A stretch of DNA of 64,000 nt. It comes from an uncultured Bacteroidales bacterium (GTDB taxonomy: Bacteria; Bacteroidota; Bacteroidia; Bacteroidales; P3). The notes beneath the pieces are model-generated. The model was not told the DNA's origin and did not search any database. It was given only the letters and a program-made list of their open reading frames with translations. Within the stretch, counting starts at the first letter, position 1, and each line of letters opens with the position of its first letter. Below, in pieces: positions 753 to 63,005 of the stretch. The translations under genes and the position numbers were made by a program. The DNA is taken from NCBI GenBank assembly GCA_900315335.1, contig OMYR01000017.1:1-64000 (forward strand), written 5' to 3'.

Positions 753-930
753 CAAATGTTTGACGAATTAATATCATATTCAACTAAGAAAGTTTTTATA
801 TCAAACGAAAAAAACGAAATTTTTAATAAGAAAACACGAATTGGCGATAAGAAAGTACGAAATGGCGAAGTATAAACACGAAATGGCGACAAGAAAATAA
901 AAGACAGGGGAGGGAAGCCAAGAAAGTGGG

Positions 931-5254: not shown

Positions 5255-5359
5255 AAATTTTCTTCACTAACCACAAAAATAATCACTCACACTAATTTAC
5301 TGATTACTCACATTAATTTACTGATTAGTGAAACTAATTTCGCGATTTCACTCTTCGTT
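5255..5359. repeat. 21-bp-period array 1
   Basis: About five units: 5255-5275, 5276-5296, 5297-5317, 5318-5338 and 5339-5359. Cores include CACTCACACTAAT, TACTCACATTAAT and TAGTGAAACTAAT. It fills the 276-base gap between the atoD promoter and the end of the DUF5683 gene. Confidence 0.85.
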
Positions 5360-11605: not shown

Positions 11606-11731
11606 TTTTCAATAAGTGTTTTTATGAAATTAGTGTTAAACACTAATAAAATAATGTCTCACATTAAAAAAATAGTGTTAAACATCAGTTTTGTGATTTG
11701 TCGTATTATTTTAATGGAAACACTCATTGTT
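11606..11731. repeat. 21-bp-period array 2
   Basis: About six units: 11606-11626, then 11627-11647 (with the full palindrome TTAGTGTTAAACACTAA), 11648-11668, 11669-11689, 11690-11710 and 11711-11731. The last unit ends on the base before the xerD stop codon. Units are A-rich at their left ends in the first half and T-rich in the second half. The remaining 11492-11605 holds nothing I recognise. Confidence 0.88.
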
Positions 11732-12664
11732 TTATTTTTCGTAAAAAGGGTGTTGGTATTGCAAGGTATGTCTTAAATCATCAGTCTTCAAATTGATATA
11801 AATTTCGGTGGCAGTTATACAAGAATGGCCTAACATCTCTTTGACTGCGACAAGGTTGGCTCCGTTACGTATAAGTTCGGTGGCAAAAGAATGACGTAAA
11901 ATATGTGGGTGGATTTTCTTTTTTATGCCAGCTTTCAAAGCCGCTTCATTTAACATTTTATTGATTGCTTGACGTGTCATTTCGCTACCACGCGTATGCG
12001 AAACAAACACATAATCACGACTTTGGGACTGAATATTGACCTTGCTACGATAGTTTTTTATGTAGTTTTTGAGGTCATTCAAAACATTTGCGGCAATGGG
12101 GACAAACCTTTCTTTATCGCCCTTGCCGATAATGTCAAGATACTCTTGCTTAAAATTTATATTGTCAAGTTTAAGATTAATAAATTCACTTACACGAAGA
12201 CCTGTGGCATAAAGAAATTCTATGCTTAACCAATTTCTATAACCATAGCCTGTCGAGGTGTCAATGGCGTTCATCATTGCAAAAATCTCTTCTTCCTCCA
12301 AAATCACAGGCAGTTTTTGTTCAAGTTTTGGAGTTATCACCAATTTGGATATATCTTTTTGCAAAACATCGTTAAACACCAAAAATTTGAAAAATGCCCG
12401 CAGAGACTGTATTATACGTGTCTGAGAAGTGGCTTTAAGTAATTTTTCTTCTTCGTTTCTATCCTTAAATACAAGGATTGTCTGCAAAAACTCATCTATA
12501 ATTTGAGGTGTAATATCACTAAATTCTTTGTCGGGATATTCAGTTGAAAGAAAATCGCAAAACCTTGTGCAATCACCCATATATGCAATGGTGGTGTTGT
12601 CGCTTAAAGAACGCTCAACTTTTAGGAAATACCTAAACTCCTCCAAATACTTTGCACTATCCAT
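11732..12664 (-). CDS. xerD: tyrosine site-specific recombinase XerD-type
   Basis: A 310-residue tyrosine recombinase. The N-terminal SAM-like core-binding domain covers about 1-95 and the catalytic domain about 115-300. All catalytic residues are visible: R157 (TGLRVSE), K181 (GKGDKER), H254 and R257 (HPHILRHSF), H280 (LGHSCI) and the nucleophile Y289 (ATEIYINL). Length and pattern match chromosomal XerC/D, which resolves dimers at dif, rather than a mobile-element integrase. No dif site was identified. Confidence 0.9.
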   Translation of the reverse strand: MDSAKYLEEFRYFLKVERSLSDNTTIAYMGDCTRFCDFLSTEYPDKEFSDITPQIIDEFLQTILVFKDRNEEEKLLKATSQTRIIQSLRAFFKFLVFNDVLQKDISKLVITPKLEQKLPVILEEEEIFAMMNAIDTSTGYGYRNWLSIEFLYATGLRVSEFINLKLDNINFKQEYLDIIGKGDKERFVPIAANVLNDLKNYIKNYRSKVNIQSQSRDYVFVSHTRGSEMTRQAINKMLNEAALKAGIKKKIHPHILRHSFATELIRNGANLVAVKEMLGHSCITATEIYINLKTDDLRHTLQYQHPFYEK

Positions 12665-12740: not shown

Positions 12741-12808
12741 TTTTTAATGTTTAACACTATTTCTCTGATGTTTAATATTATTTTACTGATGTTTAATATT
12801 ATTTTTGT
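12741..12808. repeat. 21-bp-period array 3
   Basis: Three core copies in T-rich orientation: ATGTTTAA begins at 12747, 12768 and 12789, exactly 21 bases apart. It lies between the start of xerD and the end of mtgA. Confidence 0.85.
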
Positions 12809-15393: not shown

Positions 15394-15432
15394 ACACACA
15401 CGTCAAAATAAATTAATCACTGACGTGTGTGT
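15394..15432 (+). terminator. stem-loop after the T9SS-type secreted protein gene
   Basis: ACACACACGTCA (15394-15405) pairs with 15421-15432; 15-base loop, 29 bases after the stop. The T-run is weak, so termination is probable rather than certain. Confidence 0.55.
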
Positions 15433-15449
15433 TAATTATAAAGACTATC

Positions 15450-15575
15450 AAATTAGTATCATTAATTATTTTTATAATGTCATTAATTATTAAAATAGTT
15501 TCACTAACTATTTTTTTCTTTTCACTTATTATTTTTGTCTTATCACTAATCGTTATAGCCGTATCACTAAACAAC
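15450..15575. repeat. 21-bp-period array 4 (six units)
   Basis: Six head-to-tail units starting at 15450, 15471, 15492, 15513, 15534 and 15555. Most cores are of the TATCACTAAT or TTTCACTAACT type. It lies in a convergent gap between the secreted protein gene and the GyrI-like gene. Confidence 0.9.
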
Positions 15576-17151: not shown

Positions 17152-17215
17152 ATACTTTTTGGATTATAAATATGTTTTTTTGATATTTTTCTCAAAATTT
17201 TTATCACATATCGCA

Positions 17216-17299
17216 AAATTAGTATTAAACACCGGTAAAATAATGTGAGAGATTAATAAATTAGTGTTAAACATCAGTAAAACGATTTGTAGTATTGTT
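17216..17299. repeat. 21-bp-period array 5
   Basis: Four units starting at 17216, 17237, 17258 and 17279, in the divergent gap between dapD and the deoxynucleoside kinase gene. Units 3-4 are almost the same as units 3-4 of the array at 31730. Confidence 0.9.
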
Positions 17300-21875: not shown

Positions 21876-22166
21876 TTATTCTCTTTCTTTGACGGTTATA
21901 TGTACGGTGTCACCTGCTTGTTTGCCAATCTTTATGCGTATCGACTTCAAAACGCCGAGCAAATACTCTTCCGATCCCATACGAACGATAGACCCTTTGT
22001 ATGGCTCACCGTCAAAAGTGGCATCAACCTTAACTCTGCCTTTGCCGAACTCTTTTCTAATATCATAAGGGAAAACCACGTATGCTGCATCCATATCGGG
22101 ATTTTTTTGTATCACAGCATCAAACTCGTAAATGCGTGGATTGATATTTAATACCTCTTTACTCAT
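21876..22166 (-). CDS. DUF1905 domain protein
   Basis: A small protein (about 96 residues from the ATG at 22164-22166) covering a complete DUF1905 domain: YEFDAVIQKNPDMDAAYVVFP, then VKVDATFDGEPYKGSIVRMG and LGVLKSIRIKIGKQAGDTV. The function is unknown. Its N-terminal residues SKEVLNINPR are encoded by a unit of the 21-bp-period array that continues upstream, and further ATG-started extensions would simply read through more array units. The start codon is therefore uncertain. Confidence 0.75.
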   Translation of the reverse strand: MSKEVLNINPRIYEFDAVIQKNPDMDAAYVVFPYDIRKEFGKGRVKVDATFDGEPYKGSIVRMGSEEYLLGVLKSIRIKIGKQAGDTVHITVKERE

Positions 22167-22226
22167 GTTTAACATCATTTCATTAGTGTTTAACACTATT
22201 TGATTAATGTTTAACACTAATATTAT
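22143..22226. repeat. 21-bp-period array 6, overlapping a gene start
   Basis: Four units starting at 22143, 22164, 22185 and 22206, in T-rich orientation with cores TTTAACATCA and TTTAACACTA. The first unit codes for the beginning of the DUF1905 protein and the second contains its likely ATG. Confidence 0.88.
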
Positions 22227-22268
22227 GAAAATAGGTAAGAAAATTTTTTAATTTGCAAAGCCGTTGTT

Positions 22269-24558: not shown

Positions 24559-24720
24559 TTATCATTTCAATCAGAATGCGAATTTACTATTTTTTTCTTT
24601 AAAAGTATTTGCTTTCCTGATAAAATTTAAGTTTTTTCCGATTAAATATGCTTAAATAAAAACGTAATCACCTGTCAAATATTATCTTCGTATCATAATT
24701 TTTATTTGATGTAAAACGAC

Positions 24721-24804
24721 AAAATTAGTGTGTGAGATTATTTTATTGATGTTTAACACTAATTTACTAATGTTTAACACTAATTTAATGACAAGTGTTA
24801 TTGT
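24721..24804. repeat. 21-bp-period array 7
   Basis: Four units starting at 24721, 24742, 24763 and 24784. The first begins AAAATTAGTG; the next three are in T-rich orientation with GTTTAACACTAA cores. It occupies the divergent gap between atpD and ribF, upstream of the ribF promoter. The rest of 24544-24720 shows nothing clear. Confidence 0.88.
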
Positions 24805-31664: not shown

Positions 31665-31729
31665 CAATATTCTTAATTGATATAATGACATTCGATAATT
31701 GATTTATGAAATTTTTGTGTGAAACCATA

Positions 31730-31813
31730 AAATTAGTATCACTAATTAGTAAAATAGTGTGAGTGATTAAAAAATTAGTGTTAAACATCAGTAAAACGAT
31801 TATTGATATTATT
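31730..31813. repeat. 21-bp-period array 8
   Basis: Four units starting at 31730, 31751, 31772 and 31793 in the divergent gap between the symporter gene and recR. Units 3-4 nearly repeat units 3-4 of the array at 17216. The rest of the 341-base gap holds the two promoters. Confidence 0.9.
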
Positions 31814-31918
31814 TTTTGAATAAGAATAAAAGTTTTTTTGATTACTGTAACCGATAATATTTGGGGAGAAATAGCGAGAAATATAAATAAATTCAAAACA
31901 ATTAAATGATAATTATTG

Positions 31919-35180: not shown

Positions 35181-35306
35181 TTTTCACTTATCTTATTGCC
35201 AAAAATAGTGTGAGAGATTAATGAATTAATATGAGAGACTAATAAAATGGTGTTAAACATTAGAAAATTAGTTTCACTTATCTTTTTTATGATTAGTATT
35301 ATGTGT
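35181..35306. repeat. 21-bp-period array 9
   Basis: About six units: 35181-35201, 35202-35222, 35223-35243, 35244-35264, 35265-35285 and 35286-35306. Cores alternate between GTGTGAGAGATTAAT-type, GTGTTAAACATTA and GTTTCACTTAT. It fills the divergent gap between the mutase gene and the ABC transporter genes. Confidence 0.88.
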
Positions 35307-40855: not shown

Positions 40856-41023
40856 TTTGCAATATCTGATTTTGTTTTTATAATATCACTAATTGTCGCA
40901 ACAATATCGCAAATAGTAAAAATAATCTCAATAACTGGCAAAATAGTGTTAATAACTAATAAAATAATCTCAATAACTAATAAAATAGTTACTGACACTA
41001 ATTTTGTGGTATTACTAATTAAG
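40856..41023. repeat. 21-bp-period array 11 (longest, about eight units)
   Basis: Units start at 40856, 40877, 40898, 40919, 40940, 40961, 40982 and 41003. The four from 40919 are cleanest, with A-tract starts and cores TCTCAATAACT, GTGTTAATAACT and TTACTGACACT. The last unit covers the stop codon and final residues of the CitC-CitG gene. The 345-base gap between the two genes contains only this array and the sigma promoter. Confidence 0.9.
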
Positions 41024-46634: not shown

Positions 46635-46718
46635 AAATTAGTGTTAAACACTGCAAAAATAGTGTTAAACATCATTTCACTAATGTTTAACACTATTTTT
46701 GTAGTATCGGTTAATAAA
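46635..46718. repeat. 21-bp-period array 12
   Basis: Four units starting at 46635, 46656, 46677 and 46698. The first two are A-rich with GTGTTAAACA cores; the third is T-rich with TGTTTAACACTA. It lies between the cit promoter and the alcohol dehydrogenase gene. Confidence 0.9.
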
Positions 46719-46779
46719 TAATCGTATTGACTAACACGTTTTTAGAAATTAGTTATTGTATTAACGAAAATATGGTTGC

Positions 46780-51857: not shown

Positions 51858-51866
51858 GAAGTTTCT

Positions 51867-51929
51867 AAAATGATGTTTAACACTGTTGAAATAATTAATG
51901 AAACTAAAAAATTAGTATTAAACACTAAT
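51867..51929. repeat. 21-bp-period array 13
   Basis: Three units starting at 51867, 51888 and 51909, with A-rich left ends. The cores are ATGTTTAACACT, ATTAATGAAACT and GTATTAAACACT. It lies after the ilvE terminator. Confidence 0.88.
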
Positions 51930-51974
51930 TTTCTCTTTAACGCAAAAAATAAAATATAAGCAATCGTACATAGA

Positions 51975-53126
51975 ATGAATCCAAAGCATAGAGAAACGAT
52001 TACAATTGGTTTTGATGCCAAAAGAGCTGTGACTAATACCACAGGTCTTGGGTCTTTTTCACGAACATTGATAAACGACCTGCTTAAAGACAGCAACGAT
52101 TTTGATTTTATCCTCTATGCTCCCGATTTAGGAAAAGATTATTTGCGAGAACAAATCAATAAAAGCGATAGATTACAAATAAAAACAAGCAATAAAAACC
52201 TTAAAATTTTCAAAGATTATTGGCGTAGCAAAGGTATTGTCAAGGATTTGATTAAAGATAAAGTCGATATTTTTCATGGTCTTAGCGGAGAATTGCCGCA
52301 AGGCATTAGGAAAAGCGGTATTAAAAGCGTTGTAACTATTCACGATTTGATATTTTTAAGGCATTCGGAGTTTTACAATCCGATTGATGTTAAAATCTAT
52401 ACACATAAGTTTTTCTCCACAATCAATCAGGCGGATAAAATCATTGCAATAAGCGAATGCACGAAGCGAGATATTTTGCATTATTCAAATGTAAAAGAAG
52501 AAAAAATAGATGTTATCTATCAATCGTATAACAAGATTTACTCGGCTATTGTAACCAACGACAAAAAACAAGAAATAAAACAAAAATATTCATTGCCCGA
52601 TAGATTTATTCTTAATGTCGGCTCTATCGAAAGGCGAAAAAATGTACTTTTGGCAGTTAAGGCTTTGAGCCAATTAGACAAAAACATTCATCTGGTTATT
52701 GTCGGCAAAAAGACAGATTACTTAAAAGAAGTGGAGAGTTATGTTAAGCAGCATTCATTGAATGATAGGGTTCATATATATCATAACATAAGCAACGAAG
52801 AACTAAGAGTTTTTTACAAGTTAGCCGAAATTTTTGTTTATCCATCAATTTACGAAGGCTTTGGTATTCCCATAATAGAGGCAATTGCCAATGATTTACC
52901 GGTAGTTGCTTGCAAAGGCTCTTGTTTGGAAGAAGCGGGAGGGGAGTATTCTTATTATGTCGGGACAAATGATGTCGTAGAAATGACGCAAGCACTGAAA
53001 ACACTCTTGGATAATGAAGACAAAAGGACGTTAGCCATAAATGAAAGCAAAAAGTATATTCAAAGATTTGCCAACACCAACGCTGTCGATAAGTATTTTA
53101 ACGTCTATAATAGTCTTTGTAATTAA
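51975..53126 (+). CDS. glycosyltransferase family 4 protein
   Basis: A 383-residue GT-B enzyme. The N-terminal Rossmann part (about 1-190) starts TIGFDAKRAVTNTTGLGSFSR; the C-terminal donor-binding part has LNVGSIERRKNVLLAVKAL and the EX7E-like EGFGIPIIEAIANDLPVV. Likely transfers a sugar in LPS, capsule or glycoprotein synthesis. A single-gene unit between two 21-bp arrays. Confidence 0.92.
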   Translation: MNPKHRETITIGFDAKRAVTNTTGLGSFSRTLINDLLKDSNDFDFILYAPDLGKDYLREQINKSDRLQIKTSNKNLKIFKDYWRSKGIVKDLIKDKVDIFHGLSGELPQGIRKSGIKSVVTIHDLIFLRHSEFYNPIDVKIYTHKFFSTINQADKIIAISECTKRDILHYSNVKEEKIDVIYQSYNKIYSAIVTNDKKQEIKQKYSLPDRFILNVGSIERRKNVLLAVKALSQLDKNIHLVIVGKKTDYLKEVESYVKQHSLNDRVHIYHNISNEELRVFYKLAEIFVYPSIYEGFGIPIIEAIANDLPVVACKGSCLEEAGGEYSYYVGTNDVVEMTQALKTLLDNEDKRTLAINESKKYIQRFANTNAVDKYFNVYNSLCN

Positions 53127-53127
53127 T

Positions 53128-53190
53128 AAAATAGTTTCATTGATTATTTTATTAGTTTCATTAATTAATTTATTGGTTTCACTGATTATT
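53128..53190. repeat. 21-bp-period array 14
   Basis: Three units starting at 53128, 53149 and 53170, two bases after the glycosyltransferase stop codon. All three have the GTTTCA(T/C)T core (TAGTTTCATTGATT, TAGTTTCATTAATT, TGGTTTCACTGATT). Confidence 0.9.
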
Positions 53191-53232
53191 TTATTTATTA
53201 GCCCATTTGATTTTAGAAATATTGAAAATTTG

Positions 53233-55287: not shown

Positions 55288-55313
55288 GTCATAAAATTTT
55301 AAGACTGATTAGC

Positions 55314-55397
55314 AAATTAGTGTTAAACATCAGCAAAATAATGTGAGAAACTATTTTATTAGTGTTTAACACTAATTTTTTGGTATGTGATAAACGA
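55314..55397. repeat. 21-bp-period array 15
   Basis: Four units starting at 55314, 55335, 55356 and 55377. Unit 1 has GTGTTAAACATCA, unit 2 ATGTGAGAAACT and unit 3 the palindrome TTAGTGTTTAACACTAA. It lies between coaD and the sigma factor gene. Confidence 0.9.
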
Positions 55398-61137: not shown

Positions 61138-61743
61138 ATGGATCCCTTACCCGCTGAAAGAATATTGGCAAAGATATTTAGGACGGTATTTTCACCGTAT
61201 ATGCTGTCTTCATATATTTTTTTGTTTTGCTCTTATATGATTTTGGCTTGTAGGATATATTTTATTCTGTATCCGCAATTGTTTTTGGTGTTGTTATTAT
61301 CCCAAATAGTAGCAACAGCACTCATACCTTATGTGTATACACGCTATATATCGACAAGCAGTACATCAAAACAAAGGCGAGATGTGTTGGCTTTTGCCCT
61401 TGTGGTAAGTATAATAAATTTTCTTTTGCTTAAAAATTTTGTACCTCAGGCACTATTTACACCGATAGCGACTTCGTTCGTTATAACCTTTACGACAATA
61501 ATCCTTTTGCTGATTCAATCTTATTTTACACAAATCAACTTGCATTGTACCGTTATCGGAGTTATTGTTGGTTTTGCGTTATTGATGCCGTATTACAAAA
61601 CGTTTTTGTCGTTGTCGATTGTCTTGCTTGTTTCGGGCTTGGCATTGTCGGTTTATATTGTCTGCGGAAAAAGTAATCTAAAACAAATTTTATATTGTTT
61701 GATTACAGGATTTTTATCGGTTGGAATTTCGTTGTTGTTGTAA
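61138..61743 (+). CDS. integral membrane protein of unknown function
   Basis: A 201-residue protein with about six hydrophobic helices (for example YIFLFCSYMILACRIYFIL, LFLVLLLSQIVATALIPYV, IATSFVITFTTIILLLIQ). It somewhat resembles membrane proteins related to PAP2 phosphatases that occur in this place in Bacteroidota, but I see no catalytic motif. The stop codon overlaps the ATG of the M23 peptidase gene (TAATG), so they are coupled. Confidence 0.65.
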   Translation: MDPLPAERILAKIFRTVFSPYMLSSYIFLFCSYMILACRIYFILYPQLFLVLLLSQIVATALIPYVYTRYISTSSTSKQRRDVLAFALVVSIINFLLLKNFVPQALFTPIATSFVITFTTIILLLIQSYFTQINLHCTVIGVIVGFALLMPYYKTFLSLSIVLLVSGLALSVYIVCGKSNLKQILYCLITGFLSVGISLLL

Positions 61744-63005
61744 TGAAAAAGAAAAAATACATATTATTATATATATTGACCCTTATATGTTTTTTTGACG
61801 CATTTGCTCAAAATCAAGAGGACAGGCATGCAAGAAACAAACGTATTGCCGATTCTTTATACTATGTTCATACGATAAAACCCCGTGAAGATAGTATTCG
61901 TCAGGCAAGATTAATGGAAACGGCATCTAAGCATCAACAAATGCAGGATAATGACGAAAATACATTTGCTTCCAAATCTAAAAAAAAGAAAGGTGATAAT
62001 AAAAAATTAGTCTCTCACACTAATTCAACGAATAGTGAGAAAAATTTATCAGTGTTAAACACTAAAAAACGTATATCGCAAGCCAATATTCCAACGACTT
62101 CCACTAATGCGACGGCTGATACATCAAAGAGAAAAAATTGTACAAAAGTACCTTGTACGACATTATACCAAAACACATGGTTCTCCGAAAGAGTAAAATC
62201 GGAGAAAGTCTCTTTGAAAGATATACCGGATGAAGTTACCTTGAAACTCTGCGGCAAAAATTCGACCGATAAATTCGTTTTCCCTTGTAAAGGTATAAAG
62301 ACTTCGGGATATGGTTGGCGTTGGGGACGTCCTCATACGGGAATAGATATTGCACTTCGCACGGGAGATAAGATTTATGCTGCATTTGATGGTGTTGTCA
62401 GAGTTGCTAAATATAATGGTGGTTATGGCAATATGGTGCTTATTCGCCATTATAATAACTTGGAAACTCTTTATGGCCATATGTCGGAAATAAAAGTTAA
62501 GGTCGGACAAGAGGTTAAAGCTGGTGATGTTATCGGACTCGGAGGTTCTACCGGCAGAAGCACAGGCCCGCATTTGCATTTTGAGTGTCGGTTGCTTTAT
62601 GCGTGCTTTGATCCAGAGTGGATTGTGGATATAAAAAATTTTGATTTGAAGACCAAATTGATTCGTATAGATAAGTCATATTTTGGAACGTCAGCCTCGC
62701 AAGCAGCATACGACAAAAAAGAAAGCGTTACCAAACTTACAAAAGTAAATACACTGTTGGACGGAACGAAATATATATCGGATAAAGAATTGAATAAACT
62801 TATTGCCAAGAAAGAAAAGGAGATGAATCAGCCCGTTAAAATCAATAACGATGACAAAAGTACGTGGAGATATTATAGGATAAAAGAAGATGATACATTG
62901 GAGGGGATAAGTTTGAAATATAGGGTAACGATAGAAGATCTTGTGAAAATGAATAATCTTAAAGATAATAATCTAACGGTAGGAGCAAAGATTAGAATTA
63001 GATAA
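61743..63005 (+). CDS. M23 peptidase with LysM domain
   Basis: A 420-residue secreted protein. A signal peptide (KKKKYILLYILTLICFFDAFAQ) is followed by a charged spacer, then an M23 metallopeptidase domain (HTGIDIALRTGDKIYAAFDG with the zinc His/Asp, and GRSTGPHLHFE), and a C-terminal LysM (YRIKEDDTLEGISLKYRVTIEDLVKMNNL). It should cut or bind peptidoglycan; an EnvC-like division role is possible. The ATG at 61743 is preferred over a longer start that overlaps the membrane protein gene. The spacer contains an in-frame 21-bp-period array. Confidence 0.92.
   Translation: MKKKKYILLYILTLICFFDAFAQNQEDRHARNKRIADSLYYVHTIKPREDSIRQARLMETASKHQQMQDNDENTFASKSKKKKGDNKKLVSHTNSTNSEKNLSVLNTKKRISQANIPTTSTNATADTSKRKNCTKVPCTTLYQNTWFSERVKSEKVSLKDIPDEVTLKLCGKNSTDKFVFPCKGIKTSGYGWRWGRPHTGIDIALRTGDKIYAAFDGVVRVAKYNGGYGNMVLIRHYNNLETLYGHMSEIKVKVGQEVKAGDVIGLGGSTGRSTGPHLHFECRLLYACFDPEWIVDIKNFDLKTKLIRIDKSYFGTSASQAAYDKKESVTKLTKVNTLLDGTKYISDKELNKLIAKKEKEMNQPVKINNDDKSTWRYYRIKEDDTLEGISLKYRVTIEDLVKMNNLKDNNLTVGAKIRIR
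62003..62065. repeat. 21-bp-period array 16, inside a coding sequence
   Basis: Three units starting at 62003, 62024 and 62045, within the spacer of the M23 peptidase. The DNA reads AAATTAGTCTCTCACACTAA, then a GTGAGA unit, then TCAGTGTTAAACACTAA, the same words as in the intergenic arrays. It adds about 21 codons in frame (VSHTNST to VLNTKKR). Confidence 0.88.

Follow-up and report, generated by a model that had tools for sequence, protein, structure and literature searches.

An in-frame 21-bp array in an M23 peptidase gene belongs to a chromosome-wide family of phased DNA arrays in a rumen-type Bacteroidales genome

A gene for an M23 peptidase in a rumen-type Bacteroidales genome carries, in frame, a short array of 21-bp units resembling arrays found in intergenic DNA of the same genome. 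We asked whether this segment is an inserted element, a peptide linker in its own right or one copy of a signal carried at the level of DNA.

Methods

The window, meaning the whole 64-kb stretch of DNA analysed (G000:C48:1-64000), lies within the 2.13-Mb metagenome-assembled genome G000, from a rumen-type Bacteroidales genus; its sister species ('Bacteroidales bacterium Phil12') is referred to as G002. Array counts cover 1.07 Mb of G000, about half of its genome. Arrays were detected with a 21-bp periodic HMM trained on G000 intergenic arrays, gene calls were greedy ORFs, and an array was considered deep in-gene when at least 60 nt inside an ORF of at least 450 nt. Codon-shuffled genes (882 kb) and congener DNA (391 kb) served as nulls for the HMM; a reversed-sequence null was dropped because reversed arrays retain both period and symmetry. 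In the synonymous recoding test, the peptide was held fixed, codons were drawn by genome usage and the array score was recomputed. Seven congeners were sampled at 20-80 kb each for a 21-bp signal.

The array within the M23 peptidase gene

The gene occupies 61743..63005 on the forward strand (ORF list and Pfam) and encodes a Peptidase_M23 domain (aa 197-284) and a LysM domain (aa 378-419), preceded by what appears to be a signal-peptide-like N-terminus and a variable linker. The periodic HMM detected 3.5 units of 21 bp at 61993..62065 (score 23.9), an array for which Tandem Repeats Finder gave no report. It lies in the linker, 5' of the catalytic domain (62331..62594, forward strand), as the first-pass annotation had placed it, and its detection by a model trained on intergenic arrays bears out the proposed membership of the intergenic family. 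The same annotation counted three units in one register. Two clear cores support this, namely AGTCTCTCACACT in unit 1 (62009..62021), a core type also seen in intergenic arrays, and AGTGTTAAACACT in unit 3 (62051..62063), the family's commonest dyad, which share the register of the intergenic family at a distance of exactly 42 bp, but the middle core GAATAGTGAGAAA (62030..62042) is degenerate.

The array encodes KLVSHTN STNSEKN LSVLNTK (62003-62065) and occupies the sole stop-free frame of the peptidase linker. Its score of 22.5 compared with a mean of -0.3 for synonymous recodings of the same peptide (z 4.2), a z value that, like others from this test, is somewhat inflated as arrays were picked for high score; the codon-shuffle control described below is free of that bias. 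The addition of about 21 residues first proposed is putative. The linker measures 99 aa in both G000 and G002, against 36-71 aa in those orthologues, from congeners and several further genera of the family, whose linker ends could be located, but its conservation is too low to pinpoint an insertion or to tell insertion from rewriting. A single substitution, G62010A (V to I), separates the 63-bp segments of G000 and G002, and it falls where the array unit permits A or G. The neighbouring arrays lie 6.6 kb upstream and 3.1 kb downstream.

A genome-wide family of phased units

The unit of the family comprises a 13-bp dyad, ARTnWnWnWnAYT (most often AGTGTTWAACACT), and an 8-bp AT-rich linker, with positions 2 (T) and 10 (A) fixed at 97 %. 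Allowing up to two mismatches, the core TAGTGTTWAACACTA occurred 374 times in G000 versus 5 in the reversed control and 387 times in G002 versus 11 in its control, and was present only at background level in 12 non-sister congeners; the dyad motif is confined to the two sister species. Within clusters, cores were 21, 42 or 63 bp apart and at no other distance. The HMM identified 240 arrays at a score of at least 12 and 201 at a score of at least 20 in 1.07 Mb of G000, typically of 3-5 units each. The same model found only two arrays at a score of at least 20 in 391 kb of congener DNA and none at a score of at least 15 in 882 kb of codon-shuffled genes. Neighbouring units show 3.6 mismatches when compared in direct orientation and 4.4 in inverted orientation, so the arrays are not hairpins. 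Units differ at 4.4 of 13 positions within an array and at 5.1 of 13 between arrays; neighbouring units are thus nearly as divergent as unrelated ones, which rules out recent local tandem duplication.

Dialects in other species of the genus

A 21-bp signal was present in all seven sampled congeners, most clearly in G001, G007, G008, G012 and G013 and more weakly in G005 and G010. Congener cores differ from those of G000, being TTTTCWGAAAA in G008 and G013 and AAACGCCGTTT-like in G001, G005 and G010. The position-by-position comparison of dialects covers CoaX and a few intergenic cases, because an HMM built from G008 alone, for which there was little training sequence, gave diffuse calls. In CoaX, the same loop holds the G000 array and, in G008 and G013, TTTTCWGAAAA-type cores spaced 21 and 21 bp apart. 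On the 3' side of murE, G008 and G013 carry an intergenic array in their own dialect, whilst G000 has a gap of 74 bp there and an array inside murE itself.

At the loci L291-L302 (G001, G010, G005, G012 and G007) each species displayed its own core in 21-bp, sometimes 22-bp, arrays, and some loci in other genera of the family hint at periods of 21-22 bp. Arrays of G008 (L287 5201-5311, L288 2084-2189 and L289 11490-11638) end in inverted sequences that are sharply conserved, AAGTGCC...GGCACTTTA, as if their outer units formed a different, boundary-type site.

Insertion and rewriting within genes

The M23 array is not an isolated case. Half of the G000 genome (1.07 Mb) contains 21 deep in-gene arrays, and 19 of the 21 share one reading frame, which, read from the consensus, would be the frame where the common unit has no stop codon. 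The genes concerned include those for MurE, AroA, FtsK, an SBP_bac_5 protein, CoaX, a UlaG-like hydrolase, an OmpA-domain protein, KdtA, a Pif1/HRDC helicase and Cas12a. In FtsK, as in the M23 peptidase, the array lies in a linker, whilst in MurE, AroA, CoaX, KdtA, the helicase, the UlaG-like hydrolase and the OmpA-domain protein it lies within or between folded parts. Tolerance of the element in proteins was anticipated correctly, but it extends beyond linkers. The array of the Cas12a-type gene (G000 C65:2417-2483) is situated inside the nuclease domain.

Synonymous recoding lowered the array score by 2.9-5.0 SD in every in-gene case tested. Together with the absence of matches in codon-shuffled genes, this places the in-gene signal at the level of DNA: codon choice tracks the DNA motif beyond what the peptide alone requires. 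Conservation of the protein rather than of the DNA, which the first-pass annotation had set as the contrary outcome, was tested for and did not occur.

Aligned with 12 congeners, the helicase, KdtA and AroA keep the same length across the array. In the helicase, for example, the array segment reads AKFNTNSVMLDKNITMFNTNSLINPP versus DKFDSSSVILDNNISRFNYEKSLNPP, at equal length, and one codon, for lysine or arginine in G000 and most outgroups, is ATG in G002. Judged from these alignments, the units of all three genes are written over existing conserved codons, and the ATG of G002 is a point change towards the core. The UlaG-like hydrolase has gained seven residues, equal to one unit, plus two more just downstream, and MurE has gained 19 residues at the array. 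The array is thus an insertion absent from orthologues in MurE and partly so in the UlaG-like hydrolase, but not in the helicase, KdtA or AroA, and the earlier wording that the element can enter or arise within genes holds for the presence of in-gene copies, but 'enter' misleads for genes rewritten without added residues.

These cases bear most directly on the alternative that ranks first, though we consider it unlikely: a mobile palindromic element, similar to Rickettsia palindromic elements or MITEs, that copies itself both between genes and, in frame, within them, and whose copies target immunity holds apart. Such an element would account for the many dispersed copies, the in-frame copies in unrelated genes, the residues gained by MurE, a 143-bp array-holding stretch that is in G000 and missing from G002, and the conserved inverted ends (AAGTGCC...GGCACTT) common to the G008 elements; no target-site duplication was evident. 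Against this, the helicase, KdtA and AroA gained no residue, the divergence of units within arrays relative to that between arrays indicates that most are not fresh copies, and a RAYT-type transposase (PF01797) was found in none of 14 genus genomes in a search that recovered its positive controls, which rules out RAYT-driven REP activity. Given the in-place cases and the absence of RAYT, mobile insertion alone leaves the arrays unexplained.

Turnover, constraint and spacing

We aligned 89 arrays between G000 and G002. Length was equal in 53, and in approximately 14 the difference was close to 21 or 42 bp. For two in-gene arrays present in both species the difference is 21 bp exactly, as expected from the first-pass argument that a unit of this length preserves the frame, and one of the two has entirely different units. 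Substitutions were far fewer at core positions 2 and 10 (8/515) than in linkers (155/2075; P 4e-8), so that these core positions evolve about five times more slowly. Substitution was faster even at linker positions with a bias of 85 % than at core positions with a bias of 74 % (P 4e-4). The overall substitution rate is not lower in arrays (6.0 %) than in other intergenic DNA (4.7 %).

Arrays also keep a distance from one another. At a score of at least 20, no pair of intergenic arrays was less than 1 kb apart, where 7.3 were expected, and none of 29 in-gene arrays lay within 1.06 kb of an intergenic array, compared with 32-34 % of random coding positions (P 6e-6). The corresponding in-gene figure for G002 is 0/19 against a null of 29 % (P 0.001), although most of its arrays are shared with G000 and the two results are not independent. 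Variance in the spacing of intergenic arrays was low in G000 (CV 0.66 versus 0.69-0.89 for the null; P 0.003), but not in G002, nor in G000 at a threshold of 30. Loss of closely placed repeats through recombination, or transposition immunity, could produce such an exclusion distance. In the sampled G002 sequence, the longest stretch without arrays contains the ribosomal-protein operon, and we reject foreign DNA as the origin of array-poor stretches there; the stretch is as expected if tightly packed conserved genes leave no room for arrays.

Constraint and spacing together weigh on a further alternative, which we rate as improbable and place after mobile copying, whereby the arrays are a neutral satellite of functionless 21-bp units that slippage and ectopic gene conversion have spread. 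Length differences of about one or two units between the sister species, the wholesale replacement of units in one gene and the synteny breakpoints at arrays are as such a satellite would have them. It does not predict core positions evolving more slowly than equally biased linker positions, an exclusion distance above 1 kb, writing in place over conserved protein segments, or one 21-bp period shared across the genus by different dyads. We consider that it fails because of core constraint and exclusion.

Several synteny breakpoints between G000 and G002 fall at arrays, including window 11627-11712. An apparent inversion of approximately 160 kb has both ends in arrays (window 11627-11736 and G000 C56:33887-34016), which suggests recombination between arrays. 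Elsewhere, a 5.5-kb segment between two G000 arrays (C56:49086 and C56:54719) corresponds to a single array-sized stretch in G002 (C158:226411-226474), as if recombination between arrays had deleted or inserted the segment.

Position within intergenic regions

In most classes of intergenic region of at least 200 bp, half or more of the regions hold arrays, a level that divergent regions reach only from 300 bp; at or above 300 bp, prevalence is neutral with respect to gene orientation. Intergenic arrays avoid the promoter side, and between tandem genes the array is nearer the upstream stop in 63 of 94 pairs. This last bias is what transcription terminators or hairpins at mRNA 3' ends would produce, a role that is nonetheless very improbable: units are direct rather than inverted, copies exist inside genes, and divergent regions of at least 300 bp hold arrays as often as others. 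The direct unit order and the arrays in divergent regions rule out hairpins and terminators, and the in-gene copies and lack of orientation preference uphold the earlier view that the element is not simply a transcription signal. Least credible of all is protein-level selection for a flexible linker peptide, which the linker position in M23 and FtsK would suit and which the synonymous recoding test rules out, codon choice following the DNA motif; moreover, most copies are intergenic, and others sit inside folded enzymes.

Interpretation and relation to known systems

With a probability of roughly 0.6, we interpret the M23 segment as a single instance of a DNA landmark that recurs across the chromosome: an array of putative phased protein-binding sites that selection or an uptake-like drive has spread. 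This reading starts from directly observed features (the array and its family, the DNA-level signal, phase, constrained core, spacing, in-place writing, and turnover of units and dialects) and adds a putative binding protein, its role and the force spreading the motif, which we infer. A spacing of 21 bp corresponds to two helical turns and would set all cores on one face of the helix, where a sequence-specific DNA-binding protein or complex may recognize the array. The role of the array might be chromosome organization or a signal of the self-recognition or uptake type. Selection or drive would then set one array every few kilobases, positioned outside the promoter where a long intergenic region is available and otherwise written into tolerant coding sequence. 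Within genes, point mutations and added 21-bp units would build the array in the one frame of the unit that has no stop, and the heptapeptides would be a by-product of the DNA-level array. Tentatively, we extend the proposal to the genus, in which 21-bp-phased dyad arrays may constitute a new class of chromosome landmark whose motif shifts from species to species as a dialect does, with a fast-changing putative DNA-binding system rewriting both intergenic DNA and essential genes, time and again, at intervals of kilobases.

A literature search returned no description of these 21-bp arrays. Uptake sequences (DUS/USS) have dialects that differ between related species. The arrays resemble them in having hundreds of copies in intergenic DNA and tolerant coding segments, in a genome-wide, species-specific excess of a short word (374 versus 5 in the control) and, for the helicase, KdtA and AroA though not MurE, in apparently having arisen through point mutations of coding DNA, with nothing inserted. 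In Neisseriaceae and Pasteurellaceae, DUS/USS are reported to be evenly spaced and to originate when existing sequence acquires point mutations (PMC1939737), and by analogy they appear to be the closest precedent for point-mutational rewriting of coding DNA (PMC1939737). They differ from the present arrays in being single words of 9-12 bp, non-palindromic in the case of DUS (PMC1939737), rather than dyads in phased multi-unit arrays, and our literature search found no DUS in Bacteroidota.

Other repeat systems share some of these features. Rickettsia palindromic elements are palindromic DNA that occurs between genes and, in frame, within unrelated genes, which are often metabolic (PMC10969869), a distribution like that of the arrays, but they are insertions of approximately 150 bp with a conserved peptide, whereas the arrays have 21-bp phased units and several in-gene cases without insertion. 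REP/BIME sequences are clustered palindromic units, mainly intergenic with some intragenic copies, including in replication and repair genes (PMC3733652); the arrays are similarly clustered, palindromic and mainly intergenic with some intragenic copies, yet lack the GTAG/CGTC tag and have a direct 21-bp phase in place of head-to-head dimers. Archaeal Borg elements also have tandem repeats both between and in genes, and the units of those in genes have lengths that are multiples of three (PMC9879509); Borg units are recent, perfect and specific to their locus, in contrast to the single genome-wide, degenerate unit with a constrained core described here. BrickBuilt, a minisatellite MITE of Porphyromonas gingivalis, likewise provides a Bacteroidales host with tandem repeats, of 23 nt, at many sites (PMC4596501), but its 19 copies all lie between genes and carry leader and tail sequences. 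PARCEL units are 75 bp long, lie in ORFs and encode 25-residue amphipathic repeats (PMC2996958), unlike the mostly intergenic arrays with their 21-bp period.

The DNA-level signal is strong enough to rewrite conserved codons of AroA, KdtA and the helicase at constant length, and it also extends MurE and keeps a minimum distance between copies. In-frame protein repeats can mirror chromosome biology and not protein function. Should a binding protein be found, the arrays would represent a nucleoid-organizing or self-recognition system with species dialects in gut and rumen Bacteroidales, for which our literature search found no system of such kind.

Further arrays in the window

The remaining HMM calls in the window were mostly intergenic. 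Arrays with scores above 40 were located at 11627..11736 (46.7, at a synteny breakpoint with G002), 17202..17291 (43.6), 22140..22228 (42.6), 24710..24791 (44.1), 35203..35302 (44.0), 40861..41022 (49.0, approximately 7.7 units) and 55300..55392 (46.9), the last being the closest upstream of the M23 array. Lower-scoring intergenic arrays were present at 5264..5353 (35.5; the G002 copy is one 21-bp unit longer), 12745..12804 (32.2), 15432..15570 (32.3), 51866..51934 (29.5) and 53106..53195 (35.4; the G002 copy is one unit shorter). The array at 31716..31814 (47.0) extends across a gene start and intergenic region, and that at 46636..46724 (38.0) lies within a small, doubtful ORF. A separate 21-bp direct repeat at window 826-897 (ATAAGAAAACACGAAATGGCG), unrelated to the dyad family, is one unit longer than in G002.
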